DNA of 64,000 nt from Apoderus coryli. Taxonomy: Eukaryota > Arthropoda > Insecta > Coleoptera > Attelabidae. The translations under genes were made by a program, and so were the position numbers. Shown piece by piece: positions 4,612-61,421 of this stretch. A model generated the notes under the pieces. That model saw only the letters and a program-made list of their open reading frames with translations, made no database searches and had not been told where the DNA came from. The DNA is taken from assembly GCA_911728435.2 (NCBI GenBank), contig OU452198.1, forward strand, positions 434,001 to 498,000, read 5' to 3'. Numbering within the stretch: the first letter of the stretch is position 1; each line of letters starts with the position of its first letter.

Positions 4612-5837
4612 ATGAGTCAAACGGTAAGTAAAATTACCTACAACGAAATTAAAATTAATTAATGATAAATAAGATTCGTCTGCTCCACAAACAATTCTTT
4701 ATTTTATAATATTGCGTCATCAACCAGACATGTTTCGAGAGACACAGCTCTCATCATCAGTGGTCATTAAAATGGAGGGAATTTAATACAGAATTAAATG
4801 TAATATATTTGTTTGAATCATTTGTGAAAAAACATTTTATGAAAAGTTAAATATTAAAATTTTTGTAAGTTTGTAATAGTACTTTCCTCATGGAACTTAC
4901 AAAAATTTTAATATTTAAGTTTTCATAAAATGTTTTTTCACAAATGATTCAAACAAATATATTACATTTAATTCTGTATTAAATTCCCCCCATTTTAATG
5001 ACCACTGATGATGAGAGTTGTGTCTCTCGAAACATGTCTGGTTGATGACGCAATATTATAAAATAAAGAATTGTTTGTGGAGCAGACGAATTTTATTTAT
5101 CATTACATGATAAACTCCACGTATAATGGAATATTTCTATAACATTAAAATTAATTATTATAAACTTAATAACAATTTAAGGTTTTAATTTTGTGCGGGC
5201 TGATCGCTGTTTCTTTGGCTATGCCATATGGTACCACCAAAGGTGGATTCGGTGGTGGACACAATGATAACGACAGTGCCTTTGGTGTTGGTGAGTTTAC
5301 GTATTAGTAGGTAATTTTAGTATTGAAATAAAACTGCTTGAGATTCTACTGACGGGCACATTTTGTCAATGAAATAATTAAGACACTGTTAATATTTTTA
5401 TAGCTTCCGCTTTAGAATGTAGAAAAGCGGAAGTAAAAAACCATGAAACGTAGTCAAACCTTTGATTGAGTATTGTTACTAAATTATTGCCGCTTAATCT
5501 ATGATTCCGTTTTTCTATGATCAAATTTTGAACATTCCAGATGTAGGAGGAGGTAGAGGTGGTGGACAAGGAGGTGGAGGCCAAGGCGGTTTCGGTGGTA
5601 GTCACCAAGACGGTGGTGGATTTGGAACCGGACGAGGAGGCGGTGGAGGCCATGGTGGTTTCGGTGGTGGTGGTCACCAAGGTGGCGGTGGAGGTCACGG
5701 TGGTGGTTCCGGTGGCGGCTACGGTGGTGGATTCGGAGGCGGACAAGGTGGGGATTTAGCAAATTTTCATAACAATTTAATTTATTTTGATTTTTTCAGG
5801 TGGACACCAAGGAGGTTATAAAACTCATGGTTATTAG
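4612..5837 (+). CDS. tenecin-3/holotricin-3-like glycine-rich secreted peptide (copy 2)
   Basis: The exons are 4612-4623, 5182-5290, 5541-5747 and 5800-5837, in frame, for 121 aa. The signal peptide is split after MSQT, as in copy 1, and continues VLILCGLIAVSLA. The secreted part is rich in Gly, His and Gln and ends GGHQGGYKTHGY, the same ending style as tenecin-3. A poly(A) signal lies at 5859-5864. Intron 1 is enlarged by a 482-bp hammerhead-bearing foldback element (4662-5143). Intron 3 is 52 nt and almost identical to that of copy 1, which points to recent duplication. An antifungal or haemolymph role is inferred from the family; a cuticular role cannot be excluded. Confidence 0.82.
4721..4768 (-). 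ncRNA. type-I hammerhead ribozyme
   Basis: On the minus strand the order is stem I (ACCA), CTGATGA, stem II GAGAG...CTCTC, GAAA, the palindromic stem III ACATGT, then C (GUC cleavage site) and TGGT closing stem I. All conserved core bases are present. Confidence 0.8.
4997..5044 (+). ncRNA. type-I hammerhead ribozyme
   Basis: This is the right-arm copy of the motif at 4721-4768. It has ACCA, CTGATGA, GAGAG...CTCTC, GAAA, ACATGT, C, TGGT. Core and stems are intact; only the stem II loop differs. Confidence 0.8.
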
Positions 5838-7772: not shown

Positions 7773-8044
7773 TACTTTTGGAAAAATAGATATCCGATAT
7801 GATTTGCAACCTTTGCATCTATCTAAAAGATGAGATTCACAATCAAGTCACTTTGGTCCATTTAGTCTAGGTTTTACCAAAAAGCTATTTATTCTTAAAA
7901 ATTAAAAAAAAAAGTATCTATGTTTCCTCAACTAAAAAGGAAGAATTAATCCCAAAAAGGGGTTTCCACACTAAAGACTATCAGAAAGATGTGAGCTACA
8001 ATCAAGTCACTGGATACTTTGGCCCATTTAGTCTAAGCATATAT

Positions 8045-8894: not shown

Positions 8895-9470
8895 AGAATT
8901 TCGCAATATAAGTTATTAAACCTAAGGTTGTCCCTAGGATTGTGAAATACAGAGATTTCAGTAACTTCAATTTGCAAGATTTTCTTGACTAATTGTATAA
9001 CCATCCCTGGGATAGTATTTTTTATGAAAATTCCATTGAAAATAAGATATTGTGTTTGAACAATTTTATTCTTGATACATTTGATAGACATGCACCTGTG
9101 AGACATGCAAGGATTACTAAACCTAAAGCACCGTGGCTCAACTCCAATCTCAGAATATTTATGCGTCAAAGGGATTTAGCTTTGCAGACTTACAAACGTA
9201 CTAGATGTGAATTGGATTGGATTAGATACAAGCAATTGAGAAATTTTACCTTGTCTAAAATTAGACAGGCTAAAAAACTTTACTTGGATCGTCTTTCAGG
9301 TGAAAATAATTCACGTAAGACGTGGAGTGCCCTCAAGGGGATGAACATTGCCAAGGTTGGAAATGTTGAGCTACCGGCTGTGTTGTCTAATGCCGAGCAG
9401 ATTAATTTGCATTTCGCGCAGTTCTTGCAGGGTAAATCCGATGAAGTATGTTCTAGTAAAATAAATTATT
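8895..9470 (+). pseudogene. jockey-superfamily LINE, linker region, 5' half of a split copy
   Basis: The translated region (about 8895-9470) includes FDRHAPVRHARITKPKAPWL and KTWSALKGMNIAK. This is the linker between the endonuclease and the reverse transcriptase in jockey/CR1-type elements. One stop occurs near 8990. The copy is cut at 9470 by a 1,040-bp insertion and continues at 10511. Confidence 0.75.
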
Positions 9471-9534
9471 TGAAATGGGCTTGTTTAACAAAACAAGACT
9501 TAAAATCCGAGAGTTTGTCTGTCAACCACTATAC

Positions 9535-9583
9535 TTTCACCAGACGGCCGTTTCGTCGATCCACGACTCATCAGTGGTGATCG
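9535..9583 (-). ncRNA. type-I hammerhead ribozyme
   Basis: On the minus strand: stem I CACCA, CTGATGA, stem II GTCG...CGAC, GAAA, the self-complementary stem III ACGGCCGT, C, then TGGTG closing stem I with 5 bp. The core is complete. Confidence 0.85.
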
Positions 9584-9867
9584 GTCAGTAGTTGACAGCC
9601 AAACTCTCGTAAATAATGTGGTATATACCCCACACGGAACAGATATGTAAAAGGATGTGTTTGGCGACATCTAGTTTTATCGTTGGTAGTACGCCGAGTG
9701 AACAACAGTTCCTATTTCGGCTGCCTGGGAGGTCTCTGACCCCATAAAGCAACTACCAACACATAGACGCGCCGATACTCCCTTAAGCGGGATCGCATAT
9801 ATTTGAAATGGGCTTGTTTAACAAAACAAGACTTAAAATCCGAGAGTTTGTCTGTCAACCACTATAC

Positions 9868-9915
9868 TTTCACCAGACGGCCGTTTCGTCGATCCACGAC
9901 TCATCAGTGGTGATC
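9868..9915 (-). ncRNA. type-I hammerhead ribozyme
   Basis: This is a second copy, identical in core and stems to the ribozyme at 9535-9583, in the second direct unit of the composite element. Confidence 0.85.
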
Positions 9916-10240
9916 GGTCAGTAGTTGACAGCCAAACTCTCGTAAATAATGTGGTATATACCCCACACGGAACAGATATGTAAAAGGATGTGTTTGGCGA
10001 CATCTAGTTTTATCGTTGGTAGTACGCCGAGTGAACAACAGTTCCTATCGGCGCGTCTATGTGTTGGTAGTTGCTTTATGGGGTCAGAGACCTCCCAGGC
10101 AGCCGAAATAGGAACTGTTGTTCACTCGGCGTACTACCAACGATAAAACTAGATGTCGCCAAACACATCCTTTTACATATCTGTTCCGTGTGGGGTATAT
10201 ACCACATTATTTACGAGAGTTTGGCTGTCAACTACTGACC

Positions 10241-10288
10241 GATCACCACTGATGAGTCGTGGATCGACGAAACGGCCGTCTGGTGAAA
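10241..10288 (+). ncRNA. type-I hammerhead ribozyme
   Basis: This is the inverted-unit copy. It has CACCA, CTGATGA, GTCG...CGAC, GAAA, ACGGCCGT, C, TGGTG. All core positions and a 5-bp stem I are present. Confidence 0.85.
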
Positions 10289-10510
10289 GTATAGTGGTTG
10301 ACAGACAAACTCTCGGATTTTAAGTCTTGTTTTGTTAAACAAGCCCATTTCAAATATATGCGATCCCGCTTAAGGGAGTATCGGCGCGTCTATGTGTTGG
10401 TAGTTGCTTTATGGGGTCAGAGACCTCCCAGGCAGCCGAAATAGGAACTGTTGTTCACTCGGCGTACTACCAACGATAAAACTAGATGTCGCCAAACACA
10501 TCCTTTTACA

Positions 10511-10800
10511 AATAAATTATTACTTAAATCATTTATATAGCGATAATTGTAAATATTCTCTTGTTATGACCACGGAATTTGAAGTTAATAAGATACTACA
10601 TGGTATTGAAACCAGTGCGGTGGGTGCGGACGGAATCTCTGCTACTATGCTGAAATATTGTTCTCCTTTCATTGACAAGTACATAGTTCATATCATTAAC
10701 TCTTGTATTGAGGTTTATTTCTTTCCTGATTCATGGAAGATGTCATTTGGTTTGCCTTTGTCGAAGAAATCGAATCCGACTACACTGAATGACCTAAGAT
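10511..10800 (+). pseudogene. jockey-superfamily LINE, reverse transcriptase start, 3' half of split copy
   Basis: This resumes the LINE cut at 9470. It contains TSAVGADGISATMLKYCSPF and the FFPDSWK-type start of the RT domain, then decays after about 10800. It lacks the catalytic palm motifs. Confidence 0.7.
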
Positions 10801-10869
10801 GGAATACCCGGTACATACTGAGATGCATTTTTAAAGATTGCGCGTTGAAAAATGTTAAACATAAATAAT

Positions 10870-12010: not shown

Positions 12011-12014
12011 TTCA

Positions 12015-12660: not shown

Positions 12661-12810
12661 TTCTGAACTTTTGTACTTTTCTATGTCGGTTAACAGTCAA
12701 CAATCAAAAATTGTCAGAAATGAATCACACAAGCAAAATGCGTATATTTTGGAAAACTCCAAAGCATAACATAGTCGTTCTTTGTCTTAATTTATTATTA
12801 TTGTTCTTAC

Positions 12811-35500: not shown

Positions 35501-36386
35501 CACTATTTATACGCAGATATTTTATATTTCAGATCTAGGCCAAGTTCTTGAACGCAAATTAATTGATTTTTTTTAGTTTTATTATAAAATTTATTTTGCC
35601 CCCTTTTCTACTATTTACGAACGCCTATGTAAACAAAATTGTTATGCTGCATGTTGTAGGTTATCTGTTAAGTGGTTTTTGAGTTATCACGGATACAAAT
35701 TTTTTCTGACCCTTTTATAGAATTTTCACGGACGCCTATGGAACATTAATTTTTGTCGTGTATTTTTAACACCAATTCAACTAGTTAAATATAAAATTTT
35801 TTACATTTTAATTTTTTTTATTTTACCCCTTTTTTACTATTTACGAACGCCTATGTAAATAAAAATTTTATGCTGCATTTTTTAGGTTATCTTATATGAA
35901 AGCCAATTTTTCTGGTATATTTGGGAAACATTTATTTTTCGTTTTTGACCCTTTTTAAGACTATTTTCGAACGCCTGTGTGAACTAATTCTTTTATGTAA
36001 CATTTTTTAGGTTATATTCTATCACAACTATAAAAAATTATTCCATATTTCGAATAAGTTTAGGAAATATGTATTTTTTATATTTTGACCCCTTTTCCAC
36101 TATTTACGAACGCCTATGAAAGTAAGTTATTTATGACACATTTTATAGGTTATATTCTATTAAAGCTATAAATAATTAGTTAATATTTCTGCTATGTTTA
36201 AGAAGTACGTTTTTTTTAAATATTTTTTACCCCATTTTACACTATTTTCGAACGCCAATGTGGTCTAATATTTTATGTTAAATATTTTAGGTTATATTCA
36301 ATTAAATGCGTAAAAAATTATGCAGTATTTCGGATAAGTTTAAGAACTATGAATTTTTTTAATTTTTGAACCCTATTTTCGTGCAT

Positions 36387-36424
<38 letters not shown>

Positions 36425-48400: not shown

Positions 48401-48845
48401 TAAGTTTAGGAAATATATATTTTTTATGTTTTGACCCCTTTTCCACTATTTACGAACGCCTATGAAAGTAAGTTATTCATGACACATTTTATAGGTTATA
48501 TTCTATCAAAACTATCAATAACTAGTTAATATTTCTGCTATTTTGAAGAAATACGTTTTTTTTTTAATCTTTTTTACCCCATTTTACACTATTTTCGAAC
48601 GCCAATGTGGTCTAATATTTTATGTTCAATATTTTAGGTTATATTCAATTAAATGCGTAAAAAATTATGCAGTATTTCGGATAAGTTTAAGAACTATGAA
48701 TTTTTTTAATTTTTGAACCCTCTTTTAAACCCTTTGCCTACGCTCAATGTTTCCCAAAATATAATCAGCTCCTTGCCATGTCCAATAGTATTTTTGTACC
48801 AAATTTGGTTAAAATCTGTTAAGCAATTTTTGCGTTTTCGTGGAT

Positions 48846-48876
<31 letters not shown>

Positions 48877-48877
48877 T

Positions 48878-48916
<39 letters not shown>

Positions 48917-51900
48917 TTTTTTTAAAACTACTTATTTATGTATAAAATGACCAAAAAGAAGTATTTCCGGTGAAATTAAAAAAAAAAATTTTTTCATGAA
49001 ACTAATAGTCTCCATATATACATATATTACATATATGATATGGAGAGCTAATAAGTAGTTTTAAAAAAATGTCTGTCTGTCTGTCTGTCTGTATCCACGA
49101 AAACGCAAAAAGCGCTTAACAGATTTTAACCAAATTTGGTACAAAAATACTATTGGACATGGCAAGGAGCTGATTAGATTTTTGGAAACATTGAGCGTAG
49201 GCAAAGGGTTTAAAAGAGGGTTCAAAAATTAAAAAAATTCATAGTTCTTAAACTTATCCGAAATACTGCATAATTTTTTACGCATTTAATCGAATATAAC
49301 CTAAAATATTGAACATAAAATATTAGACCACATTGGCGTTCGAAAATAGTGTAAAATGGGGTAAAAAAGATTTAAAAAAAAAACGTATTTCTTAAAAATA
49401 GCAGAAATATTAACTAGTTATTTATAGTTTTGATAGAATATAACCTATAAAATGTGTCATAAATAACTTACTTTCATAGGCGTTCGTAAATAGTGGAAAA
49501 GGGGTCAAAACATAAAAAATATATATATCCTAAACTTATTCGAAATATGGAATAATTTTTCATAGTTGTGATACAATATAAGCTAAAAAATATTCCATAA
49601 AAAAATTGGTTCACACAGGCGTTCGAAAATAGTTTAAAAAAAGGGTCAAAAACGAAAAAAAATGTTTCTCAAATATACCAGAAAAATTGGCTAATTATAT
49701 ATAGCTTTGATATAAGATAACCTAAAAAATGCAGCATAAAATTTTTATTTACATAGGCGTTCGTAAATAGCAGAAAAAGGGGTAAATAAAAAAAAATTAA
49801 AATGTAAAAATTTTTATATTTAACAAAATGAATTGGTGTTAAAAATACACGACAAAAATTAATGTACCATAGGCGTCCGTGAAAATTCTATAAAAGGGTC
49901 AGAAAAAATTTGTATCCGTGATAACTCAAAAACCACTTAACGGATTTTAACCACATTTGGTACGAAAATACTACAGGATATTTATAGGTGGTGATTAACA
50001 TTGAGCGTAGGCAAGGGGTTTAAAAGAGGGTTCAAAAATTTAAAAAATCATAGTTCTTAAACTTATCCGAAATATTGAATAATTTTTTATAGTTGTGATA
50101 GAATATAACCTAAAAAATGTTACATAAAAGAATTATTTCACACAGGCGTTCGAAAATAGTCTTAAAAAAGGGTCAAAAACGAAAAAAAAATGTTTCCCAA
50201 ATATACCAGAAAAATTGGCTAATTATATATAGCTTTCATATAAGATAACCTAAAAAATGCAGCATAAAATTTTTATTTACATTGGCGTTCGTAAAAAAGA
50301 GGTAAAATAAAAAAATTTAAATGTTAAAAATTTTATATTTAACTAGTTGAATTGGTGTTAAAAATACACGACAAAAATTAATGTTCCATAGGCGTCCGTG
50401 AAAATTCTATAAAAGGGTCAGAAAAAAATTGTATCCGTGATAACTCAAAAACCACTTAATGGATAACTTACAACATGCAGCATAACAATTTTGTTTACAT
50501 AGGCGTTCGTAAATAGTAGAAAAGGGGGCAAAATAAATTTTATAATAAAGCTAAAAAAAATCAATTAATTTGCGTTCAAGAACTTGGCCTAGATCTGAAA
50601 TATAAAATATCTGCGTATAAATAGTGCCTCCAAAAAGAAGAAAAAGGCACAAAACCCGATACTTAAAAAAAAATAGCTGATGTCTAAAACAAAACAAAAA
50701 TTTATTAAATTTAGATAAATGACAAAAAGGTCATAAAATTATTACTTTTACACTTAAATATGGAGAGCTATTCGTGCCTCGAGGGCAACAGTTTATTGAT
50801 GTTGAGTTGCGGTCATTTTGCCACATGATGAATGCTTGACGCTTAGTGTCTATTAGTCTTTGTATCTCTTCATCATTTTCGTCGAACGAATCCTGATGAT
50901 TTCGGTGCACATAGACTAGCGTCTCCTCACCAGCAGAGTGCACCTAAATCACCACCAGTGTTCTTCAATATCATCCAGATATTCTTTCGGGAGCTTGTCC
51001 TGCAGGTGTTCCTGAAAACCCAGTTTCGCTCTGTTGTCAACCTTGCTAACTCCCCAACTACTAGCTTCTGTATATAATAATAAAAGTCCGACATTTAATT
51101 TACATGAAGGTTTCGAGAATTTTGAATGTTTGGACCATCCTATAACTGAAACATCTGGTTATCTTTTTTAATATATGCTTTTATCTTTGGACTAACTCAT
51201 AAACAAACAAATATTCTCGATGAGAAAAAGGTCGTTATTTATGTAAAACTTCTTTTAGGAATATTTGTTAAAAGCTAAAAGATAATAAATTTGTTACTTG
51301 CAGATGTTGTTGTTGTTGTTACGAAAAGATTAGACTTCTAGGTATAAAACTATAAAAATAAGAGAAACTATCCAAAATTTTCCAAATATATATACAGGGG
51401 AGGACAAAAGTAAATTCTATTGTCAGTGTGTCTACAGTTTTTTTTTTGGAGTTTCTTAAAATAAAATATGACTGAAGGTTATTTTCCTCCTCTTTTTCTT
51501 TCAGATAGATACAATTGTAAGCAGTGGGTTTAAGTCGGTTAGTCAATGTATACATGATTTAACACAGAAACAGTCTTCTGGCCTTAGAAGAAAATCCAAG
51601 CGTAAGGCAATTTCCCTGGATGATTCAATAATTCAGAATATACCACTTTTACAGGATTTAGCATATCATTCGCATAAAACTGAAATACTCAATTACATTG
51701 AGATGAAAGAAGTAAGACAGCAAATAATGGTAAAACACAATTTTATTGAATACAACAAACAAATTTTAGCAACAAGACGAGGAAGAAAGACAAAACGCCA
51801 TTACAAAAGGTTTAATTCAAACTTGTGGTTGTTGTTTTGATGAGGAGGTGTTACCAAAGGATGTTTTTATGTGTAACAAGGATTGCAAGTTTTGTCGAGA

Positions 51901-54900
51901 ATGTATTCAAAGAAACGCGGAAATTGCTATGGGCGAAGGGAAATGTAAAGTTATGTGTATGGCACAGTGTGATGGGGAGTTTAGTTTGCAGGTATGTATC
52001 AATGAGTTTCTTTTTCACTATTATCTTATTTGTTTATTGTATTGTTTTTTTAAAGGTTTTACAGAGTATTCTACCTCCAAATATGTTTACAAAATTGGCG
52101 CAACGCAATATGCTGGAAGAAGTGAGTTAATTTTTATTGATTTTTTCTAATTAGAATAGAATAAAAGTTCGACCGACAACGCTCTACAACAGAAAGCTCT
52201 AGCCTTAAAGGGCTTAGTTGTCTAGAGATACAGGGTGTCAAAGATTCAAATTTAAAATCGATAATTTGCCATAATTCAAAAACGCCTTTAAATATTTTTT
52301 CAAATTTAGTGACTGCTCCTTAAAAAAGTCATATTTTGACATAAAAAAAAAACATTAATTAGCCGACATTTAACAAATTTTCCAGATTGCAATCGAATAA
52401 ATTTTAAATGTTTAGAAATTTTTGAGCATTGTATTTGTTAATTTTTTTTTAAGGGCAAAAAAGTAATACTTCGAATTATCTTTTTGAATTTTTTAGATTT
52501 GAATTCATGATTTCTTTAGCGTGTAACTATAAGCTCCTAGAGGTGATCTACGGGGTATCTCAAACATGTTTCTATTTATTTTCAATATTTTTAGGTACGG
52601 TAGAACGTAATAGAAAAATTTTCAGAATTTTTTGAGATTGATTTATGAAATTATTGCACAGGATGGTTAAAAAGTGTTTCAAAAAAAATTTAATTTGAAG
52701 TTTTTTGTATATTTTTAGGTAGAATGGGCTCATGTGATCTATTTAGAATTTTACCAGTTAGGTAGTTGGAACCTATTTTATTAAAATTAAAAGACAATAT
52801 TTGTTATCAGGCTGTGGCGTCATTGGTACGGCATGCGAAAAGTTAGGGGTTCGAATCCCAGCTCTGGCAATTTTTTTGAATTTTTTGTTTTGATTTTTTT
52901 TTATTTTTTTTTTAATTTTTTTTTATTTTTTTTTAATTTTTTTTTTAATTTTTATTTTTGTAATTTTTTTTTCTGAATTTTTTTTTTTAAATTTTTTAAC
53001 TTTTTTTTATAAAATTGTTATACAGTTTGTATGTGTCCCGTTTAAAATTTTACCAGTTAGGTAGTTGGAACTTATATTATTAAAATTAAAAGACAATATT
53101 TGTTATCAGGCTGTGGCGTCATTGGTAGGGCATCCGAAAAGTTAGGGGTTCGAATCCCAGCTCTGGCAATAATTTTTTGAATTTTTTGTTTTGAATTTTT
53201 TTTTTTTATTTTTGTTTTGATTTTTTTTTTATTTTTTTTTAATTTTTTTTTGATTTTTTTTTTAATTTTTATTTTTTTAATTTTTTTTTCTGAATTTTTT
53301 TTTTTAAATTTTTTAACTTTTTTTTATAAAATTGTTATACAGTGTGTATGTGTCCCATTTAAAATTTTACCAGTTAGGTAGTTGGAACTTATATTATTAA
53401 AATTAAAAGACAATATTTGTTATCAGGCTGTGGCGTCATTGGTAGGGCATCCGAAAAGTTAGGGGTTCGAATCCCAGCTCTGGCAATAATTTTTTTGAAT
53501 TTATTTTTTGAATTTTTGTTTTGAATTTTTTTTTGAATTTATATTTTTTTAATTTTTTTTCTGAAATTTTTTAACTTTTTTTTTAAATTTTTTTTTTATT
53601 TTTTTTTACAACCCTCAATGACTTTTGTCATAGATAAGACTACCACAAAACGACTGGGAAATCCCAAGGGGATTTCTTGTTTTGACATAAACAATATTTA
53701 AAAAAAATGAACCAGTGGCATGCTATAGGGGTTAGTAGCCTTTTTTATACCCTTATTTCTTACATCACTGGAACAAATATATTGTTTTAAAAACTTTTTA
53801 TGGGTCTAAAGGAATTTGCTTTAAAAAAAACGTCTGGAATCAGAGGGTGCGTATGTATCCATACCTCATTTTTCAAAAAAGTTTCTACTTTCAACTTTAC
53901 TTGCAGTTTTGTTTAGATTTTTTTTTCAATTTTTTTTTTGTTTTTTTTTTTATTTATTTTTTTTTGAAATTTTTTAACTTTTTTTAAAATTTTTTTTTTT
54001 AATTTTTTTTTACAACCCTCAATGACTTTTGTCATACATAAGACTACCACAAAACGACTGGGAAATCCCAACGGGATTTCTTGTTTTGACATAAACAATA
54101 TTTTAAAAAAATGAACCAGTGGCATGCTATAGGGGTTAGTGGCCCTTTTTATACCCCTATTTTTTACATCACTGGAACAAATGTATTGTTTTAAAAATTT
54201 TTTATGGGTCTAAAGAAATTTGCTTTTAAAAAAAAGTCTGGAAGTAGACGGTGTGTATGTATACATGTAAAAAGTATTCTTGATTATTTTAAAATTATTT
54301 AATAAAAGTCTAAAAACCACACCCAAAATCATTTATTATTTGTCATCACATAAAACAACGTATTTCTAACAGCTCTTGTTAACATCTTTCTTCTATTATA
54401 TTTTGTTATCTTCTAATATTCTCATTACTCGTTCGGCCACCCTTGTTATATCGTAAGCAAAACCTGTTTGTCTGGTGTGACGTAGGCGAACCATGTCGGA
54501 ATGTACTTTACAGGGGATGATTGCTAACATACATACCTCATTTTTGCAAAAAAGTTTCTACTTTCAACTTTACTTGCAGTTTTGTTTTGATTTTTTTTTT
54601 AATTTTTTTTTTTTAATTTTTTTAACTTTTTTTTTAATTTTTTTTTACAACCCTCAATGACTTTTGTCATAGATAAGACTACCACAAAACGACTGGGAAA
54701 TCCCAAGGGGATTTCTTGTTTTGACATAAACAATATTTTAAAAAAATGAACCAGTGGCATGCTATAGGGGTTAGTAGCCTTTTTTATACCCCTATTTCTT
54801 ACATCACTGGAACAAATATATTGTTTTAAAAACTTTTTATGGGTCTAAAGGAATTTGCTTTTAAAAAAAAGTCTGGAAGTAGACGGTGTGTATGTATACA

Positions 54901-57900
54901 TGTAAAAAGTATTCTTGATTATTTTAAAATTATTTAATAAAAGTCTAAAAACCACACCCAAAATCATTTATTATTTGTCATCACATAAAACAACGTATTT
55001 CTAACAGCTCTTATTAACATCTTTCTTCTATTATATCTTGTTATCTTCTAATACTCTCATCATTACTCGTTCGGCCACCCTTGTTATATCGTAAACAAAA
55101 CCTGTTTCTCTGGTGTGACGTAGGCGAACCACGTCGGAATGTACTTTACAGGGGATGATTGTTAACATACATACTTCATTTTTTCAAAAAAGTTTCTACT
55201 TTCAACTTTACTTGCAGTTTAAGTTTGGAGGCAAATTCCTGCAAAACCGTTCACTTTAGATCCAAAAAAAGTTACTACTGTTTGAAGCAAAAATGAACAG
55301 GGAATTTAAAAAAAAAATATATTTGTTCCAGTGGCGTAAAAATAGGGGGATAACAAGTGTCACTAACCCCTATAGCATGCCATTGGTTAATTTTTTTAAA
55401 ATATTGTTTATGTCAAAAATATGACTTTTTTAAAGGATATAGCGGTCACTAAATTTGAAAAAAATATTTAAAGGGGTTTTTGAATTATGGCAAATTTTAT
55501 CGTATCGTATCTCAGGCACTTGCAGGCTTTAGTTTAGAGGCAAATTCCTGCAAAACCGTTCACTTTAGACCTATAAAAAGTTATTACTTTGTTAAGCAAA
55601 AATGAACAGGGAATTTAAGAAAAATTAAAAAAATATATTTATTCCAGTGGCGTCAAAAATAGGGGGATAAAAAGTGTCACTAACCCCTATAGCATGCCAC
55701 TGGTTGATTTTTTAAAAATATTGTTTATGTCAAAAAATGACTTTTTTAAATAACATATCGGTCACTAAATTTGAAAAAAATATTTAAAGAAGTTTTTGAA
55801 TTATGACAAATTTTTTTACATATTACACAAAACAGCTCTTACAAATATGGAAAACAAACAAAACAAAATTATGAAATGAGGGAATTAATAATACTCTGTC
55901 TCCTCCACTAAATTTCAATATATATTCATAAATCTGGTCGTATTCTAATTATCATTGGGTTCTTATAACATACATGTTTCGGTCATATATATGGCCATCC
56001 TCAGTGTTATACAAAAGTTACATTGTCACATAATATTGAAGTTTACTGGAATAAAAAATAAAAAAAATTTCTTTAAAAATTCTACATTCTTAAAACTAAC
56101 TCAACTAAAAGAACATTATACTTCAAAATTATGAAACCTTCATATAAAATCTCCAAATCCAAATACTCTTGTACGGTATAAAGACAGTTACCACAAAAAT
56201 GATTTTTAATACTACTTTCAAATTTTGAGAACGGCAACGGTGTTACACTATCTGGCAATACAGTAAAGAAATTTGGATTCAGTGAGTATTTGAAGGATTT
56301 CGTTAATTTATATTTATTTATTTATCTATTTACGGACAAAGTCAATTATTACAACACGAAAATATAAAAATAAAAAACAGGCGTGAGAATCACTTACTAA
56401 ACTAATTAAATTACTAATTGCGCAATACTAATCGCAAAAGTAGTTGTGAAAATCGAAAGCCACATCAAGTGCCGCAGGAACTCATTAGTCGGGGAGAAAA
56501 AGTCGAGTCCCAGACCCGAAAAACCGATTGGCCAAACGACAATTAATGATCTGTGAAATAACAAAATAAAATCAGAAAAAAAGCCAGGTGGAATCTTAAA
56601 TTTTCATCTAATTGACATCTAGGTAAAGGCAGCTGGTCTTGATGATTTGGAGTATTGCCCAGCCTGCGATTTCGCGAATATACCCGCGCCTGGTGATAAG
56701 CTGTTCCGTTGTATGAATCCTGAATGCATGAAGGAAACTTGTCGACAGTGTAAAGAACCATCTCATGTGCCCCTTCGATGTGAAGAGGTGGAAAAGGATC
56801 AGGAAACTAAAGCGAGGACGTATATTGAGAACCAGATGACCGAGGCATTGCTAAGGTAACATTAATAAATATTTCGAGACATTTCATTATGTTTTGGCGT
56901 TTCTCTAGGACTTGCTACCAATGCAATGCGAAGTTCTTTAAAGAAGAGGGTTGCAATAAGATGACTTGTTCGTGTGGGGCCAAGATGTGTTACGTTTGCA
57001 GAAAACCAGTCATCGATTACAAGCATTTTAATGGTATTGGAGGGACCGAACTTAATAAGTAAGTCTTGCAGATTTTTTTTTTTTTTGTTTATGAACTTAT
57101 TGAATTTTGCAGGAAATTTGCGAAACCTTTAGGGATTTCACTTTTTTTTTGTGCGATTTCGGTGGTGAGGAGCTAAAGCTCAACATTACTGAAGAAATTA
57201 GCGTTTTAGGTGCAGTTATACCGGGAGTGTTCCAGATTAACGAAAGTACTTTGAAGTTTGTTTGATTTTGTGGCCAAATAACATATTTTTTCTATAAATA
57301 ACCGTTTTTGAGTTGCGATTTTTTAAAGCCTTCATTCGAATATTTATTTATTTACGGGCAAACGCCCATTTTATACAAAATTACAATAAATAAAAATAGT
57401 TCTACAATAAAACACTTCAAAAGAATTAGACAATCGAAAAATGTCAAATAAAAATCAATCATAAATAAAATGGATAATAATAAGATACACGATCAATACT
57501 TCACTATTATAAAGCAATATGGTACAACACAACGTATCAATTATCAAAGAGGTGCCCTACTGAACCCAAAAAGGTATTTCTCGGGACAAAAAAATCCAGT
57601 GTCTCTTCACTGTCATTGGCGAGACGCATTGAGCGCGCCAAAAATGAATTCCAACCATAATTTGTTCTGGAATGTGTCTGGTGAAACATACGCCTCGTAC
57701 GCGTTGCACGATATGGAACATGAATTCCAATCTTGCCCAAAAGAACGGGACAATTCAACCTTCCATTTATAAGGTCATACAATAAAATCAAAGCATGTCT
57801 CTGTCGTCGATCACCCAGCGTGTCAATGCCAAGGTAGGACTCTAAGTCGGCATATAATTCAAAACGATTCTCAAAAATAAAGTCTATGTGCAGTTTGTAG

Positions 57901-60900
57901 GCTAGGTATCTAAGAAATTTGTGCTGTACCTGCTCAATTTTTGCTAGATGCACAGTATAATGTGGAGACCACACAGCCGACGCTTACTCAAAGCACGGTC
58001 TGACCAAACTTGTGTAAAGAAGCCTCAGAGAATCGACATGTGTGAACTCCCGTGAGCAACGTTTATTGAAGCCAAGAACCTTCAGAGACCTTGAGACCAT
58101 TGAAGTTATATGTGGAATAAGCCACTATCAAGCACGACTCCAAGATCCTTAACTGTAGTAACCAATTTAAGGGAAGTCTGGTTCAGTGAGTAATCGAAAA
58201 GAGTGGTCCGTCTTGATCTCGAAAAGGACATAAAACAACACTTATCAACATTCAGATGCATATCATTCCCAACACACCACTCGTGAAGAGCTCCAAGGTC
58301 AGACTGCAATCTCTCGCAATCTTCAGTTTTGTTGACTATCGTAAATAGTTTGAGATCATCAGCGAACAAGAGAAAATCGCTCGAAGTAAAACATCTGGCG
58401 ATGTCATTAACGAAAATATTAAAAAACAGTGGTCCCAAGTGGGGGACGCCAGATGATACTTTTATCTCAGTAGAAATAAAGCCCTTGACCTTAACGTATT
58501 GAATTCTGTTATCAAGGTAGCTACTCATCCATTCGAGCATGCGTCCGCCGATGCCAACCTCAGCCAACTTTATCAATAAGATTTTATGATTTACATGATC
58601 GAAGGCTTTGGAGAAATCGGTATACACTGAATGTACCTCCGATCCACTCTCTAGAGCATTAATAATAAAGTTGGTGTATTTTAACAGACTATAGGTAAAG
58701 GCGCCAAGCAAACAGGAATCTGAAAAAAGTGCTGATTAAAATTTTCATTTACCGTGGCAGATAGCTTTCAAAACTTGTAACCAATATCCCTCAGGCAACA
58801 GAACAGAACAGAATGGCAACATCGCAATTTATTTAAACATGCCCGCGTGGTATAGCACGTTCGTGCATCATGTATCGCCTAGCAGACGGGAGTTCGACAG
58901 CCCTATCATTTTTTTAGTACAACACACCTAGCTTAGGTCAATGATCTCTTAGCATAAGACGTATGGACTTTGACATTTGACGTGTAGCGGTTGACATTTG
59001 ACGTATAGCGTTGACATATTGTCACGTTTAGGTTTAACGTGAACTACGAGGGCATTGAAAATCTAAGAGATTGAAACACCGAATACCAAGTTTAAATAGA
59101 CTAAGTTTATTAAAGTTGAGAAGAGTTTACAAAATGATGAAACTTAGATTAGAGACTATAGAGTTATAATAATATAATACAAATAATATTACTTACATTA
59201 AAATATAAGAGACCACATACGGTCAAGTTGCACTATGGTTCACATTTTACTGCCTTCAGGTTTTCTTACTATTATTTAAGTAAGTTTTCTTTATTTGGGT
59301 TGTAGGTCGTAAACAATAAAACTCAGTTTTAAATATCACTAACGTTTCGATCTATATTAGATCATCCTCAGAGTGCTGATTTCTTTTACATTGTAACACA
59401 AAATTTTTGTGATTCACAAAATTCGCTAATTGTTTGTTTGTGTTGGCCCAGAGTTTCAAGTTGTGGTATGCATCGTCACCATATTCTCGTTTGATGTTAC
59501 TTAGAAAACCCATTGCTGTTGGCGCGTAGAACAATTCCCAAAAGTTATAATATTTTGCTAAGTTTTTTTTGACCTTCTGTTAAATATTTAAGTAAGTTTT
59601 CTTTATTTGGGTTGTAGGTCGTAAACTTACTTAAATATTTAACAGAAGGTCAAAAAAACTTAGCAAAATTTCTTACTATTAATTTCAAAATTAGATCTGT
59701 ACTCGTGACAATATTCTTACCCCCACCACCTCTTGGGAACCGGAATTTCGACATCTCAGAATATAATTTCTCCCCTATTTTCTCAGAAAAATATGAAAAT
59801 TTGGCAACGCTGCATGGGTTTTCGGTGCTAAATTCTGGGAATGTAAATATGTCAAATTTATCCCTAAATGGCGGTGTTGGGAACAAAAAATCATGGACCT
59901 ATGTCTGTTCTATAACCATATTGTATAGACAATAATTTCCAACTTTAGGGACATACGTTATTGCGTCAAGGTTTTGACATTTTACGTGATTTTAATCGGA
60001 TCACAAAAAATTACCCTTGTTTTCAGCCGAACAAGTATTTGGTGTTAATTTCGGCACATCCTGTATAAACGGTAACAACTTTTTCTTTGAAATTGAAGTT
60101 GGTTGGTTTTAGGTCAATTATAGAAACAAAGTAATTCCTCTGTCGACGTTTCGACTTTTATTAAGTCATCCTCAGGACAGTGAACAATTTGTTTCTTTTG
60201 TCAATATTTTCCATTGTGAAGGACATTTACATATGATGAAATCAAAAAGTTTTAGTTTATACACTATTAAAATAGCAAAATATATGTTTAAAAGAAACCC
60301 CCTTTGTTCACTGACCTGATGATGACTTACTAAAAGTCGAAACGTTGACAGAGGAATTACATTGTTTCTATAATTGACCTAAAACCAACCAACTTCAATT
60401 TGAAAACACTTAAAGGTCACTAACACAACAGTTTTTCTTTGAAGGTGTCCACTATTCAGTGACAACATCGAAATGAATCAACATAACGTGTTGGAGGCAG
60501 CTAACAAAGCTAAACAAGACCTCGACCCGAAAATGTTAAAACACGATCCTACTGCTGATGTCGAAACTCATTTCCAGGAACGTAAGAAAGTCGTACAACA
60601 ACCGCATTTGGTGGCCATACAACAGCATGTAAGTTAAACCGTATTTACCAAAATTTAATTTTTTTCATGGATTCTCCATTAATACTCAGTGGTGGTTCGT
60701 GGTTTTTGAAAGAGGGTGGGCACATGAAAAAATTTACGTACTATTTTTTGTACATGAAGTCATGCTCCACAAATGACACAAATATATATTACCAAACATG
60801 TTTCGGAGCTTCAAGCTCCATCATCACTGGCCATGCAATCAGCAAAGAAAAGCTACATTGCAATGTGCAGAGAACTTAGAATTATTAATAAATAGAGCAC

Positions 60901-61421
60901 ATTGTAATGCAGCTTTTCTTTGACGATTGTATGGCCACTGATGAAGAAGCTTGAAGCTCCGAAACATGTTTGTTTTATTTCGTGGAGGATTGAGTTTCAT
61001 TCCTGTTAAATAGAATTTACTCCACTATAGAATGGACTACTTCTTTCAGGTGGTCAATAACTTTGTTGTTAAAGTCTGGGGTAGATTGGACGAACTTTTT
61101 TTTGCGATGTGTTTAAATCATTATTCTATGTACTGATCTCTTTCTTCAAAATGAAGTGCAGTTTATTTGAAGATCAAGAGTAGGCCTTGCTTTCTTCCTA
61201 ATAAAAAGTTTATCGCCAAATGATAGCGGGTTTTTTTTAAATATTTTACGTACCATTAACTTTGGCTCCATCATAAATATAAAAAGGCTACAATATTTTA
61301 TCACGTATTTGTGGTGCTTTGAACATTTCAGAGTAGAAAATATTATGAAAATTTACAAAAAAGGAAGACTTATACTGAGTCTGTTGCAACTGGAATCTCA
61401 TTTGGGACACTCATTTCCTAA
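23531..61421 (+). CDS. RNF216: RNF216/TRIAD3-type RBR E3 ubiquitin-protein ligase, 16 exons
   Basis: The exons are 23531-23533, 23730-23876, 24236-24405, 26713-26902, 30849-31106, 34102-34285, 34480-34842, 40553-40772, 45079-45268, 51505-51729, 51770-51991, 52056-52121, 56623-56855, 56909-57058, 60445-60628 and 61332-61421. All have GT-AG borders and matching phases, giving 964 aa. The order is: an N-terminal region with FPD-type CUE-like modules; a low-complexity Pro/Ser linker; a charged helix before the RBR; RING1 from C669; IBR near 755-800; RING2 with likely catalytic C844; and a Lys/Glu-rich tail. RBR ligases load ubiquitin onto the RING2 cysteine; vertebrate RNF216 acts in TLR/RIG-I signalling and autophagy turnover. 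The start codon is the last triplet before the first donor (ATG|GTAAGT). The gene spans 38 kb because of transposons. Confidence 0.9.
24600..26611 (+). pseudogene. jockey/CR1-type LINE in RNF216 intron 3
   Basis: The linker ([20 protein letters not shown]) is followed by a reverse transcriptase with [39 protein letters not shown] and the catalytic [11 protein letters not shown]-terminal maturase-like region ends near 26500. A frameshift near 25098 and a deletion near 25610, just before GPLLFLVYI, break the frame. The 3' end is a (TAA)n run at 26593-26611. It is 5' truncated and inactive, in the same orientation as the host gene. Confidence 0.88.
27732..27780 (-). ncRNA. type-I hammerhead ribozyme motif
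   Basis: On the minus strand: CAAC, CTGAGGA, stem II GTTACTAATTAGTAAC (perfect hairpin arms), GAAA, ACGT, C, then GTTTG. The core is intact; stem I has about 3 bp. Confidence 0.7.
28755..28797 (+). ncRNA. type-I hammerhead ribozyme
   Basis: GTCA, CTGATGA, stem II AGGTAGTACCT, GAAA, ACATGT, A (GUA cleavage site), TGAC. All core bases are present and stem I has 4 bp. Confidence 0.78.
29061..29103 (-). ncRNA. degenerate hammerhead ribozyme motif
   Basis: On the minus strand: CTGAGGA, GCAGC...GCTAC (one mismatch), GAAA, ACGT, C. The core is preserved, but stem I pairing is poor, so activity is doubtful. Confidence 0.5.
29330..30145. mobile_element. foldback element with CAGGGTGTC inner ends
   Basis: The left arm (about 29338-29650) is repeated in inverted orientation at about 29885-30130. 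Both carry the ATTGAGAGGGGACA end, the phrase GAGATAAGAGACTGATGTC, and an inner CAGGGTGTCAAAG/TTTGACATCCTGT pair. It has no ORF and sits in RNF216 intron 4. Confidence 0.7.
31230..32750 (-). repeat. degenerate coding-like Lys/Glu/Arg-rich repeat region
   Basis: The plus strand is a T/C-rich array of phrases such as TTCTTCTAGTCGTTTTCTTT and TTTTTCAGCTTCACGTTGT. The minus strand would encode a charged coiled-coil type protein (for example [20 protein letters not shown]). A block at about 31545-32100 is duplicated at about 32225-32700. Frames are short and broken. It resumes after the LINE fragment, at 33867-34030. Its origin is unknown: a decayed repetitive gene or a minisatellite. Confidence 0.55.
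32751..33866 (-). pseudogene. RNase H-encoding non-LTR retrotransposon fragment (copy 1)
   Basis: The minus-strand frame of 371 aa begins with the end of the RT region ([20 protein letters not shown]), has an internal deletion near 90 aa, and then a full RNase H domain. Catalytic-site motifs are [14 protein letters not shown] (D), FQAEINAI (E), [14 protein letters not shown] (D) and [20 protein letters not shown] (D). A CCHC-type tail ([14 protein letters not shown]) follows. RNase H places it in the I/LOA-like part of the LINEs. It is embedded in the Lys/Glu-rich repeat; short CTTTCT-like sequence occurs at both borders. Confidence 0.85.
33867..34030 (-). repeat. continuation of the Lys/Glu/Arg-rich repeat
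   Basis: T/C-rich phrases such as TTCCAGTCGCATTTTCTT match 31230-32750. This shows that the LINE fragment at 32751-33866 was inserted into a single older array. Confidence 0.6.
34480..34842 (+). CDS. RNF216: RNF216 exon 7: Pro-rich linker and CUE-like module
   Basis: This is the largest exon (aa 318-439). It holds Gln/Pro-rich disorder ([17 protein letters not shown]) and then [20 protein letters not shown]. That pattern of I/L-FPD-x-P followed by a hydrophobic helix is CUE-like and may bind ubiquitin. Confidence 0.85.
35330..36480. repeat. partial copy of the GAACGCCTATG repeat family with (ACAG)n
   Basis: It starts at GTTGCCCACGAGGCACGAAT and runs through several subunits with CTATTTACGAACGCCTATG / AGGTTATATTCTAT. 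It ends with an (ACAG)n microsatellite at 36387-36440. The same order occurs in both arms of 46611-50791. It has no coding capacity. Confidence 0.75.
36537..38393. mobile_element. 1.85-kb foldback element with CAGGGTGTCC ends
   Basis: The left end TATACAGGGTGTCCTACGGT (36540) and the right end ACCGTAGGACACCCTGTATA (about 38372-38391) are inverted. The arms match over several hundred base pairs, including a second inner pair CAGGGTGGTCAAAAAA (36964) / TTTTTTGACCACCCTG (37943). The central part is about 37250-37700. It has no ORF and appears nested or composite. Confidence 0.75.
38747..39645. mobile_element. palindromic element of the CGACTGGACAAAAACCC family
   Basis: The plus-oriented arm (38747-39060) and inverted arm (about 39405-39645) share ATGGGAAACCGTGACGCTTT and ATCTGGTTATCTTTTCAATA. 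Single-arm relatives lie at 46060-46430, 51040-51434 and 62160-62620. The frames read from it are not supported as genes. Confidence 0.65.
39955..40345 (+). pseudogene. mariner-like transposase fragment
   Basis: Conceptual translation across frames gives [21 protein letters not shown] and [20 protein letters not shown]. These are the catalytic-core motifs of mariner/Tc1 transposases (D in HDGAP, D in SPDL.DFF). Several stops are present and no terminal repeats are seen. Confidence 0.75.
40553..40772 (+). CDS. RNF216: RNF216 exon 8: second CUE-like module
   Basis: aa 439-512. It contains [20 protein letters not shown] followed by [20 protein letters not shown]. This region preceding the RBR is well conserved in RNF216 orthologues and resembles the module in exon 7. 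Confidence 0.88.
40788..41100 (-). repeat. probable 3' end of a jockey-type LINE
   Basis: The sequence starts ATTTATTTACGGACAAGAAA, like those at 56320 and 57345 where it marks LINE 3' ends (minus orientation). No diagnostic protein motif remains. Confidence 0.4.
41230..42330. repeat. tandem repeat of ~421-468 bp units
   Basis: The phrase GTCGATTTGGAACGTCAAGG recurs at about 41237, 41705 and 42126. Units share CAATCCTATGGATGTGAAAC, GGAGAGAAGACC and TGACGGAGCATTCGGACACA. Copy 2 is 421 bp and copy 1 carries about 47 bp more. Part of a further unit lies at 45358-45600. Each unit keeps a 73-aa plus-strand frame ([20 protein letters not shown]) and a 65-aa minus-strand frame. Neither is recognised. 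Confidence 0.8.
42563..42613 (-). ncRNA. type-I hammerhead ribozyme
   Basis: On the minus strand: GCCA, CTGATGA, stem II GGGACT...AGTCCC, GAAA, ACATGT, A, TGGC. The core is intact and stem I has 4 bp. Confidence 0.8.
42902..42952 (+). ncRNA. hammerhead ribozyme with core mutation
   Basis: This mirrors 42563-42613, but the first box reads CTAATGA instead of CTGATGA. The stems are preserved (GCCA/TGGC, GGGACT/AGTCCC). The missing conserved G should abolish or strongly reduce cleavage. Confidence 0.65.
43430..44710 (-). pseudogene. RNase H-encoding non-LTR retrotransposon fragment (copy 2)
   Basis: This is closely similar to 32751-33866, but extends further 3' ([16 protein letters not shown]...). 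RNase H motifs: [52 protein letters not shown]. The frames are broken. The zinc-knuckle segment is expanded as three copies of a 62-bp unit at 43651-43836, which shifts the frame. Confidence 0.82.
43651..43836. repeat. 62-bp tandem repeat, three copies, inside a LINE
   Basis: ATGCATTC(A/G)CAGAGCACGT starts at 43651, 43713 and 43775, each followed by CTCTGTTGCGTCTTCGCAAA. 62 is not a multiple of three, so the coding frame is lost. Confidence 0.9.
44720..45000 (-). pseudogene. LINE reverse transcriptase fragment
   Basis: On the minus strand, [20 protein letters not shown] and the later [10 protein letters not shown] match the start of a jockey-type RT domain. It abuts the RNase H LINE fragment and ends about 80 bp before RNF216 exon 9. 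Confidence 0.65.
45831..46430. repeat. left direct repeat flanking the 4.2-kb foldback
   Basis: About 600 bp, nearly identical to 50798-51434 but lacking about 37 bp. It contains a minus-strand remnant of an RTE-like LINE linker and a single arm of the CGACTGGACAAAAACCC family (46060-46430). Confidence 0.75.
46611..50791. mobile_element. 4.2-kb foldback element (GAACGCCTATG family)
   Basis: The ends CTGTTGCCCTCGAGGCACGA (46611) and its reverse complement (50791) are inverted. The arms meet near 49030 at a palindromic spacer (ATATATTACATATATGATAT). Each arm is a string of about 260-420-bp subunits with (A)CGAACGCCTATG and GGTTATATTCTAT, and carries (ACAG)n near the centre (48846-48916; (CTGT)n at 49071-49091). 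It has no ORF. It lies in RNF216 intron 9, between two ~600-bp direct repeats. Confidence 0.8.
50798..51434. repeat. right direct repeat flanking the 4.2-kb foldback
   Basis: This is a longer version of 45831-46430. Its minus strand keeps [20 protein letters not shown] and [17 protein letters not shown], the linker typical of RTE/BovB-type LINEs. It ends about 70 bp before RNF216 exon 10. Confidence 0.75.
51770..51991 (+). CDS. RNF216: RNF216 exon 11: RING1
   Basis: aa 651-724. The RING1 cysteines start at TCGCCFDEE (C669/C671/C672), followed by [20 protein letters not shown] and [17 protein letters not shown]1 recruits the E2 in RBR ligases. The preceding intron is only 40 nt. Confidence 0.9.
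52810..52869 (+). repeat. tRNA-like (A/B box) repeat head, copy 1
   Basis: GGCTGTGGCGTCATTGGTA resembles an A box and GGGGTTCGAATCCCAGC has a B box with T-arm pairing. The anticodon arm and paired acceptor ends are missing. Confidence 0.55.
53109..53168 (+). repeat. tRNA-like repeat head, copy 2
   Basis: Same as 52810-52869 with GGTAGGGCATCC in place of GGTACGGCATGC. It lies 299 bp downstream. Confidence 0.55.
53426..53485 (+). repeat. tRNA-like repeat head, copy 3
   Basis: Identical to copy 2 over the A- and B-box parts, 317 bp further on. Confidence 0.55.
55965..56011 (-). ncRNA. type-I hammerhead ribozyme
   Basis: On the minus strand: AACA, CTGAGGA, stem II GGCCATA..TATGACC (one C/A mismatch), GAAA, ACATGT, A, TGTT. 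The core is intact and stem I has 4 bp. Confidence 0.72.
56310..56545 (-). repeat. probable LINE 3' end
   Basis: It starts with ATTTATTTATCTATTTACGG, resembling the LINE 3' end at 57345, and ends about 80 bp before RNF216 exon 13. No protein motif was recognised. Confidence 0.4.
56623..56855 (+). CDS. RNF216: RNF216 exon 13: IBR domain
   Basis: aa 747-824. The zinc-binding pattern [34 protein letters not shown] and the following basic/acidic helix match the in-between-RING domain of RNF216. Confidence 0.92.
56909..57058 (+). CDS. RNF216: RNF216 exon 14: RING2 with catalytic cysteine
   Basis: aa 824-874. [20 protein letters not shown] is followed by [20 protein letters not shown]. By alignment with RBR enzymes, C844 in NKMTCSCG is the thioester-forming residue. 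The intron before it is 53 nt. Confidence 0.92.
57340..58725 (-). pseudogene. jockey-type LINE, RT to 3' end, in RNF216 intron 14
   Basis: On the minus strand, the RT domain at 58711-58106 has [20 protein letters not shown] and the catalytic [11 protein letters not shown]. The usual GVPQGS motif is shortened to [13 protein letters not shown], a 3-residue deletion. After a frameshift, the C-terminal region continues at 57974-57537 ([20 protein letters not shown]). A 3' tail rich in AATAAATA ends near 57340. It is 5' truncated and inactive. Confidence 0.85.
58836..58899 (+). repeat. tRNA-like SINE head
   Basis: GCCCGCGTGGTATAGCACGT (A-box-like) and GAGTTCGACAGCCC (B-box-like), followed by a T-tract. 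The clover leaf is imperfect. Confidence 0.4.
59333..59378 (-). ncRNA. type-I hammerhead ribozyme
   Basis: On the minus strand: CACT, CTGAGGA, stem II GATCT...AGATC, GAAA, ACGT, T, AGTG. The core is intact and stem I has 4 bp. Confidence 0.75.
59352..59534 (-). pseudogene. N-terminal fragment of a Penelope-like ORF
   Basis: The minus-strand frame of 60 aa contains [20 protein letters not shown] and [20 protein letters not shown]. This resembles the region before the RT in Penelope-like elements (KYG...HKNH..FLL.C). The last residues (NQHSEDDLI) are encoded by the overlapping hammerhead motif at 59333-59378. This suggests truncation of the element at, or recombination with, its ribozyme. Confidence 0.5.
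60136..60185 (-). ncRNA. type-I hammerhead ribozyme
   Basis: On the minus strand: CTGTC, CTGAGGA, stem II GACTT...AAGTC, GAAA, ACGT, C, GACAG. The core is intact and stem I has 5 bp. Confidence 0.8.
60306..60355 (+). ncRNA. type-I hammerhead ribozyme
   Basis: CTGAC, CTGATGA, stem II GACTT...AAGTC, GAAA, ACGT, T, GACAG. The core is intact; stem I has one mismatch. Confidence 0.72.
60445..60628 (+). CDS. RNF216: RNF216 exon 15: end of RING2 and helical tail
   Basis: aa 874-935. It begins with the last RING2 zinc ligand context KCPLFSDN and continues into charged helix ([25 protein letters not shown]). The acceptor CTTTGAAG lies inside a 12-bp direct repeat created by a transposon insertion immediately upstream. 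Confidence 0.88.
60790..60835 (-). ncRNA. hammerhead motif with mutated core
   Basis: On the minus strand: CCA, GTGATGA (expected CTGATGA), stem II GGAGC...GCTCC, GAAA, ACATGT, T, TGG. The first core base is changed, so it is probably inactive. Confidence 0.55.
60931..60975 (+). ncRNA. hammerhead motif with weakened stem II
   Basis: GGCCA, CTGATGA, stem II GAAGC...GCTCC (one mismatch), GAAA, ACATGT, T. The core is intact; stem I is mostly lost. Confidence 0.55.
61332..61421 (+). CDS. RNF216: RNF216 terminal exon 16
   Basis: After the acceptor ACATTTCAG, the frame (phase 0) reads [20 protein letters not shown] and ends at TAA 61419-61421. Phase match and a short basic tail make it the likely last exon; no conserved domain confirms it. 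Confidence 0.65.
   Translation, partial: SRKYYENLQKRKTYTESVATGISFGTLIS

Follow-up and report, generated by a model that had tools for sequence, protein, structure and literature searches.

What are the sixteen or so hammerhead ribozyme motifs found within a single stretch of the genome of the beetle Apoderus coryli, and how did so many of them come to lie there? The stretch analysed, hereafter the window, is 64 kb long, and positions are counted from its first nucleotide. Minimal type I hammerheads of Penelope-like elements have reportedly been described by Cervera and De la Pena in 2014 and by Lunse, Weinberg and Breaker in 2017. Our analysis makes it probable that the 16 motifs are hammerheads residing in Penelope-like insertions (13 motifs, some of them assigned from the motif) and in a 333-bp retrozyme insertion (3 motifs), whose RNAs are predicted to be cut to unit lengths and were likely copied by a Penelope-type reverse transcriptase (RT) into AT-rich targets. 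Penelope hammerheads and animal retrozymes are both already published kinds; the new element is that they leave common insertion scars in one genome.

Hammerhead motifs and their classes

The motifs were examined with a strict descriptor and with covariance models. The descriptor (CTGANGA, 0-1 nt, stem II of at least 4 bp, GAAA, palindromic stem III, H, stem I of at least 4 bp) finds 9 of the 16 sites in the window and gave no match in 100 dinucleotide shuffles, which constitutes an independent test. Covariance models trained on non-window motifs recovered all 16 sites at E<0.01, and nothing else in the window fell below that value. Model R1, built on 8 non-window sequences, retrieves 15 sites at E≤0.0064 (best other window match, E 0.42), and model R2, built on 14 non-window sequences, adds 29059- (best other window match, E 0.092). 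Since some of the training sequences share repeat families with the window sites, the model test is not fully independent and its matches count as support, not as independent proof. Every site of the approximately sixteen claimed by the sequence-only reading exists, and the observation of hammerhead sequences in the window is confirmed.

The features of a type I hammerhead (CUGANGA and GAAA core, three helices, an open helix I and H at the cut site) are all present in the 9 strict sites, and at least one position is decayed in the 7 others, two of which have lost a core base. Stem I is short or broken in 27736- and 29059- and mismatched in 60310+; stem II contains mismatches in 55965- and 60932+; the core is altered to CTAATGA in 42906+, and its first C is replaced by G in 60789-. 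The Rfam hammerhead model, put forward as a check together with the original claim, lists three of the 16 sites, at 33.8 bits and thus just short of the curated cut-off of 34 (RF00163), while the custom covariance models match all 16. Relatives of the canonical class score 37.4 and 34.4 bits in Rfam. With 3/16 sites listed, Rfam was rejected as the sole test. At 8 loci bearing minimal hammerheads, Rfam 15 listed no hammerhead even at E up to 10, and its missing of this class represents an annotation gap. Several other candidates were discarded. Rfam matches to miRNA families all stayed below the cut-offs of those families and, where compared, were located in palindromes; a bare CTGANGA...GAAA search of the window returned 19 rows, 5 of them clearly due to chance; three pattern matches in viral contigs lacked the stems, as judged by eye, and one narrow pattern gave no match in prokaryote genomes.

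The 16 motifs form two classes. In the three canonical sites of the 333-bp retrozyme (9537-, 9870- and 10243+), stem II directly follows CTGATGA. The 13 minimal sites, of Penelope type, carry an A or T between CTGANGA and stem II and possess a short stem I and a stem III that is a palindrome of 4 or 6 nt (ACGT or ACATGT). The minimal pattern with A/T before stem II matches 16,428 times in the 428-Mb genome (reversed-pattern control, 22), and the same pattern with G/C at this place 657 times (control, 23), meaning that A/T is kept in 16,428 of 17,085 matches. The canonical pattern has 2,179 genome matches and none in the control. Ten matches to the genome-wide minimal pattern lie in the window, against 2.46 expected from the genome mean (Poisson P 2.4e-4, with paired insertions not being independent). 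The window samples, at high density, a phenomenon that extends over the whole genome. The number and variety of the motifs had initially been regarded as remarkable for one gene, a view that did not hold: the two patterns alone match 18,607 places in the genome, so that such abundance is not peculiar to one gene. With a T between CTGANGA and stem II, the base of stem II contains an ATG, and it is at this place that the open reading frame (ORF) of the Anolis element PAc reportedly begins (PMC11167929).

Stems I and II of the different families differ in sequence and yet co-vary, as the first reading had already stated. The two minimal types were aligned apart (A2, A3) and a mixed alignment (A1) was dropped because their stem III lengths differ; A2 and A3 omit L037:2156-2203, L050 and one member of a near-identical pair of L051 motifs. 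With 8 non-window sequences 91.7% of the cells pair, versus 71.0% when shuffled, and with 14 non-window sequences 73.2% versus 52.8%; none of 500 shuffles was as high in either set. A weaker measure, namely both-sided changes in the 14-sequence set (one of five measures), was matched by 74 of 500 shuffles. When 25 distinct stem II families, window included, are considered, 89/100 stem II cells pair (maximum of 2,000 re-deals, 65), as do 93/125 stem I cells (re-deal maximum, 74).

Insertions in the window

Five head-to-head elements contain 11 of the 16 motifs, and target duplications are present at three of the five. The palindromic Penelope-type insertion P1 (4662-5143) has arms at 4660-4871 and 4894-5105 and is bordered by 14-bp duplications, ATTAAAATTAATTA, at 4648-4661 and 5144-5157. 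Its left arm carries a minimal hammerhead at 4721-4766 on the minus strand and its right arm another one at 4999-5044 on the plus strand, each found by the strict descriptor and the models; a GTGGAG...CTCCAC hairpin with a one-sided tail, the predicted region of reverse-transcription start, occupies 5077-5143 (+). The regions 239-1400 and 4462-5750 are tandem paralogous genes, apparently for glycine-rich proteins, 80-92% alike in pieces; P1 sits in the second paralogue, and the first one shows the empty site near 421-441. Since P1 is flanked by the 14-bp duplication and is lacking from the neighbouring paralogous copy, it can be considered an insertion. A transcript spanning P1 is predicted to fold on itself as a 446-nt hairpin (-326 kcal/mol, z -48.7), and for this reason the paired remnants of the window are probably inert.

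P3 (60092-60431), with arms within 60086-60405, is likewise a palindromic Penelope-type insertion, and its 12-bp, T-rich duplications, TTTTTCTTTGAA, lie at 60080-60091 and 60432-60443. The minimal hammerhead of its left arm (60139-60181, -) was found by the strict descriptor and by model, and that of its right arm (60310-60352, +), with the stem I mismatch, by model. The palindromic element P2 (42527-42989) belongs to a family with 1,475 first-look candidates in the genome; it bears a minimal hammerhead at 42564-42610 (-) in the left arm, found by descriptor and model, and the CTAATGA variant at 42906-42952 (+) in the right arm, found by model. In the head-to-head pair P4 (60765-61046; palindrome 60793-60972), the left-arm motif with the altered first core C (60789-60833, -) and the right-arm motif with decayed stem II (60932-60976, +) were both found by model. 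Its GTGGAG...CTCCAC hairpin with the tail ATGGACTACTTCTTT (60982-61046, +) corresponds to the ORF start in the full-length element L098, and its arms (60.8-61.0 kb) share 78-83% identity with the direct repeat of L098. A search for target duplications of P2 and P4 found none. The Penelope-type copies of the window are short, and no RT or GIY-YIG ORF was found in them.

Five minimal motifs stand singly. The one at 27736-27779 (-; short stem I; model) also occurs beside the GIY-YIG frames of L042, L046, L048 and L049. The four others are 28755-28797 (+; ACATGT type; descriptor and model), 29059-29102 (-; broken stem I; model R2), 55965-56010 (-; stem II mismatch; model) and 59335-59377 (-; ACGT type; descriptor and model). 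No link to a Penelope ORF was found for these four families, and the motif alone suggests that they are Penelope-like.

The fifth head-to-head element is the retrozyme insertion at 9471-10509, composed of two tandem minus-strand units with a spacing of 333 and an inverted plus-strand unit, between 12-bp duplications, AAATAAATTATT, at 9459-9470 and 10510-10521. The canonical type I hammerheads of these units (9537-9580, -; 9870-9913, -; 10243-10286, + in the inverted unit) were each found by Rfam and the strict descriptor. The three units agree with what characterizes a retrozyme, namely tandemly repeated units some 150-450 bp long that bear a type I hammerhead and need no ORF. In the region 8993-10868 the cluster interrupts open frames that we interpret as an RT-like element; neither of the two frame pieces had a Pfam match.

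Full-length Penelope-like relatives

The earlier suggestion linking the hammerheads to Penelope-like elements is borne out by full-length elements with hammerheads in the same genome. GIY-YIG sequences are abundant there: 150 of 1,260 first-look candidates were scored, and all 150 exceeded the cut-off. Out of 14 GIY-YIG loci, 7 (L039, L042, L043, L046, L048, L050 and L051) are followed by a hammerhead on the same strand; it is doubtful in two more, being weak in L044 and situated within an apparent separate head-to-head pair in L045, and was not found downstream in the 5 other loci examined. A scan with one core mismatch allowed found no hammerhead in 7 GIY-YIG loci, and the covariance models found some of them.

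L050 and L051 each contain two long frames in head-to-head arrangement, each frame being followed by a hammerhead at a distance of 133 bp. The L050 frame combines RVT_1 (RT) and GIY-YIG endonuclease domains, and the hammerhead-bearing pLTR repeats of this element are inverted and 99.6% identical; a PDB sequence search with its protein returned none. In the full-length ACATGT-type element L098 the pLTRs form direct repeats that extend over at least 513 bp, show 100% identity and each contain a hammerhead; an 861-aa frame lies between them and starts inside the repeat. Its protein matches RVT_1 in Pfam. GIY-YIG was not found by Pfam at 0.01, and this region of L098 is seen solely by alignment to the L050 protein (31% over 775 columns). 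Named protein relatives include those of longhorn beetles, Tribolium, a lacewing and a firefly, and these mobile-element proteins by themselves point to a beetle as the likely host.

Among the 15 distinct ACATGT-type copies examined, 6 carry GTGGAG and CTCCAC separated by a loop of about 32 nt or longer, and in most of these ATGGACTAYTT follows; the remaining copies are tail-less arms or decayed. Predicted folds form this hairpin, and a pattern joining the 3' half of the hammerhead to the hairpin matches 969 places in the genome (control, 0). The GTGGAG/CTCCAC arms are nearly invariant. In L098 the hairpin stretch constitutes the ORF leader and the first codons, the right-hand repeat stops 8 codons into the ORF, and the predicted cuts are 3,271 nt apart, with an ATG 72 nt after each. 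Of six monomer folds predicted, not one consists of a bare hammerhead (z -2.55 to 0.21). By its title, the work of Lunse et al. of 2017 is said to concern dimer activity of hammerheads, and these modelled monomer folds would be in line with it.

Insertion scars

In the P2 family the 30 best-scoring of the 1,475 first-look candidates were analysed, one of them being the window's own copy, and this choice favours tail-bearing copies. In 27 of these 30 loci, the end of the main copy falls at query 268-275. An inverted arm is present in 21, ending at 214-241 (at 228-241 in 19/21) and never later, and none of the 21 inverted arms carries a tail. The two ends of the family are situated 62 and 100 nt beyond the predicted ribozyme cut. 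Duplications of at least 10 bp occur at 14 of the 21 loci with an inverted arm, as compared with 16 of 870 cross-pairs; none was found at the 9 loci without such an arm, the left border of which is poorly known.

Around the full-length elements L050 and L051 the target is duplicated over 12 and 13 bp, and only one side carries a tail, of 30-34 bp; L017, which contains a GIY-YIG remnant, and L031 likewise combine duplications of 12 and 13 bp with a one-sided tail. The combination of one-sided tail and short target duplication is thus found in these four as well as in P1 and P3. The tail of L012 is also one-sided, its 8-bp duplication being within chance, and no duplication was seen at L003, where the border is incomplete; in the control, 2 of 400 random pairs reached at least 11 bp. 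Among minimal motifs in the first 0.57 Mb, 8 head-to-head neighbours were counted versus 1 tail-to-tail, the latter consisting of two different families.

For the retrozyme, all same-strand pairs except one have a spacing of 333-339 bp. Among 100 motifs listed, 13 neighbours are head-to-head and none tail-to-tail, and 38 of the 43 partial matches listed end at two sharp points (25 + 13). These ends lie 76 and 233 nt beyond the predicted ribozyme cut. Borders were read for 8 insertions, two of which are one duplicated insertion, leaving 7 independent ones; target duplications of 12-15 bp flank 5 of the 7 (one a T-run; cross-pair maximum, 10), and no clear duplication was seen in the 2 others. 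Some of its genome copies are 98-100% alike. Head-to-head arms, two fixed 3' ends and duplications of about 12 bp in most two-armed Penelope, remnant and retrozyme copies consequently form a common insertion grammar.

Two retrozyme loci call for separate mention. At L086-L089 (C21, 11.14 and 12.32 Mb), two insertions have identical flanks in opposite orientation, reflecting either a segmental duplication or an assembly matter. At L082 (C10:11493570-11493709), the flank carries the Penelope-type tail ATGGACTACTTCTTTCGAAT about 15 nt from the insertion point; a target preference for this tail sequence is possible.

Proposed mechanism and rival explanations

From the folds and their covariation, the full-length Penelope-like elements, the head-to-head arms, the one-sided tails and the target duplications, all of which can be read in the DNA, we infer a staggered break, reverse-transcription starts on its two sides and head-to-head joining. 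Hammerheads would cut tandem transcripts into units, which a host ligase may close into circles; such circularisation is published for retrozyme units, according to the part of the report available (PMC7229834). The endonuclease would make a break staggered by about 12 nt, and reverse transcription would begin on either side of this break, with a separate fixed RNA site for each. The two cDNAs would run inward, halt at variable points and be joined head-to-head. For L098, uncut tandem RNA would be directly copyable, whereas RNA cut at both hammerheads could be fully copied only once circular, because the putative start region lies just past the predicted cut. Retrozyme arrays would arise when this kind of enzyme takes up, in trans, circular or tandem RNA.

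Since both kinds leave the same insertion scars, Penelope elements likely move the retrozymes. The common scars thereby support, without proving, the proposal made in the accessible part of PMC7229834 that Penelope machinery moves animal retrozymes. On the other hand, cutting may be dispensable for insertion, since the insertion ends differ from the predicted cut and hammerhead mutants of the Anolis element still insert (PMC11167929). A wider reading, which we offer tentatively and would expect to fail somewhat more often than to hold, is that Penelope machinery integrates both itself and retrozymes by two-sided priming, the hammerhead acting as a switch and the retrozymes being ring-only parasites. 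On each side of the break one cDNA would then start, the two using different internal sites of a single RNA, circular or tandem. The hammerhead would separate the template body from the start site, so that cutting would free an mRNA-like unit that is not fully copyable, and ring closure would restore the cut unit to a template.

The alternative that survives best concerns the inverted arms, which could result from fold-back self-priming of a single cDNA and not from two separate starts. This explanation, proposed for rotifer Penelope elements in the part of PMC3846280 available, agrees with the palindromes present at the junctions, and we consider it unlikely though by no means negligible. However, a fold-back copy should repeat the tail, and the absence of a tail from 21/21 inverted P2 arms favours two separate starts over simple fold-back; the tails of L050, L051, L012, L017 and L031 are one-sided, too.

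Movement of the retrozymes by LINE-type RTs, with a merely coincidental likeness of scars, appears improbable. LINE-type RT domains do exist in the window (RVT_1 at 24998-26502 and 58106-58735), and LINE insertions can likewise be 5'-truncated and inverted. Moreover, the compared 3' regions of retrozyme and Penelope elements have no common sequence beyond the ribozyme core. Yet the retrozyme has two fixed ends on opposite arms, its neighbours among the 100 motifs listed are head-to-head in 13 cases and tail-to-tail in none, its duplications are near 12 bp as in L050 and L051, and the ends were read without any element-borne poly(A).

An origin of the short palindromic elements as MITEs or fold-back DNA transposons that carry hammerheads by accident is very improbable. 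Their target duplications and their terminal inverted arms, 180-463 bp long, would suit such elements, but the inner arm ends are variably truncated, the outer ends are unequal and the full-length relatives encode an RT. Slighter still is the chance that the hammerheads serve the host by processing transcripts of surrounding genes. P2 is situated in a putative intron, and P3 immediately upstream of a putative first coding exon (near 60470); against a host role stand the thousands of dispersed copies, the imperfection of 7/16 window motifs and the predicted burial of the ribozyme of the P1 transcript in the 446-nt hairpin. Chance accounts for 5 of the 19 bare-search rows and for the three viral-contig matches, but for the 16 sites as a set it is already refuted, with 0 matches in 100 shuffles and 16,428 versus 22 matches genome-wide, and its probability is vanishingly small.

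Relation to known systems

The insertion reading adopted here agrees with several described systems. The minimal Penelope hammerheads of PMC6155905 and PMC7761336, as far as the available parts of these reports go, have a similar core and a very short helix III, likewise lie in or next to terminal repeats and occur as thousands of dispersed copies; there is no demonstrable difference from the present ones. In the available part of the report on the Poseidon element PAc of Anolis (PMC11167929), reverse transcription begins at an internal stem-loop of the RNA, the two strands of the target are each cut and extended in vitro, the tail is the stretch between the two start sites, and insertion persists in hammerhead mutants. 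The present elements resemble PAc in having a hammerhead near the ORF start and AT-rich targets, and also by an internal start of reverse transcription, a tail between two start sites and the cutting and extension of both strands, where start and cutting are for our elements only putative. Unlike the PAc ORF, which begins at stem II and has the cut 26 bp into it (PMC11167929), the L098 ORF follows a 72-nt leader past the predicted cut.

The Penelope elements of the rotifer Adineta vaga, according to the accessible part of PMC3846280, similarly display direct and inverted pLTRs, junction palindromes and an ORF start inside the pLTR, with a 31-bp tail on one inverted pLTR and target duplications of 8-10 bp. 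In Apoderus the duplications are mostly 12-13 bp and the copies far more numerous, and the inverted P2 arms are tail-less, an observation at odds with the self-priming model put forward for the rotifer. Compared with the metazoan retrozymes of PMC7229834, as described in its available part, the present arrays are distinguished by head-to-head arrangement, inverted units, two fixed ends and duplications of about 12 bp; the word 'inverted' is absent from the main text of that report, as available. No report of a common insertion grammar was found in the accessible literature on Penelope elements and retrozymes, which is not proof of its absence. In that same literature, the role of the Penelope ribozyme and the enzyme that moves retrozymes are still open or only proposed. 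Thousands of copies of both kinds with readable, like scars in one genome render both questions directly testable.

Other features of the window

ARAGORN found no tRNA gene in the whole window. Units of about 317 bp at 52741-53607, with GGTTCGAATCCC at 52848, 53147 and 53464, resemble a tRNA-derived SINE, and ARAGORN reports no tRNA in them. The frames at 34407-34877 and 51472-52150 presumably represent exons of a RING gene similar to RNF216; with 51770-52150, Pfam returned no match. Finally, the regions 35569-36441 and 46827-50571 consist of AT-rich arrays of about 140-bp units, direct and inverted, with ACTATTTACGAACGCCTATG and (ACAG)n.
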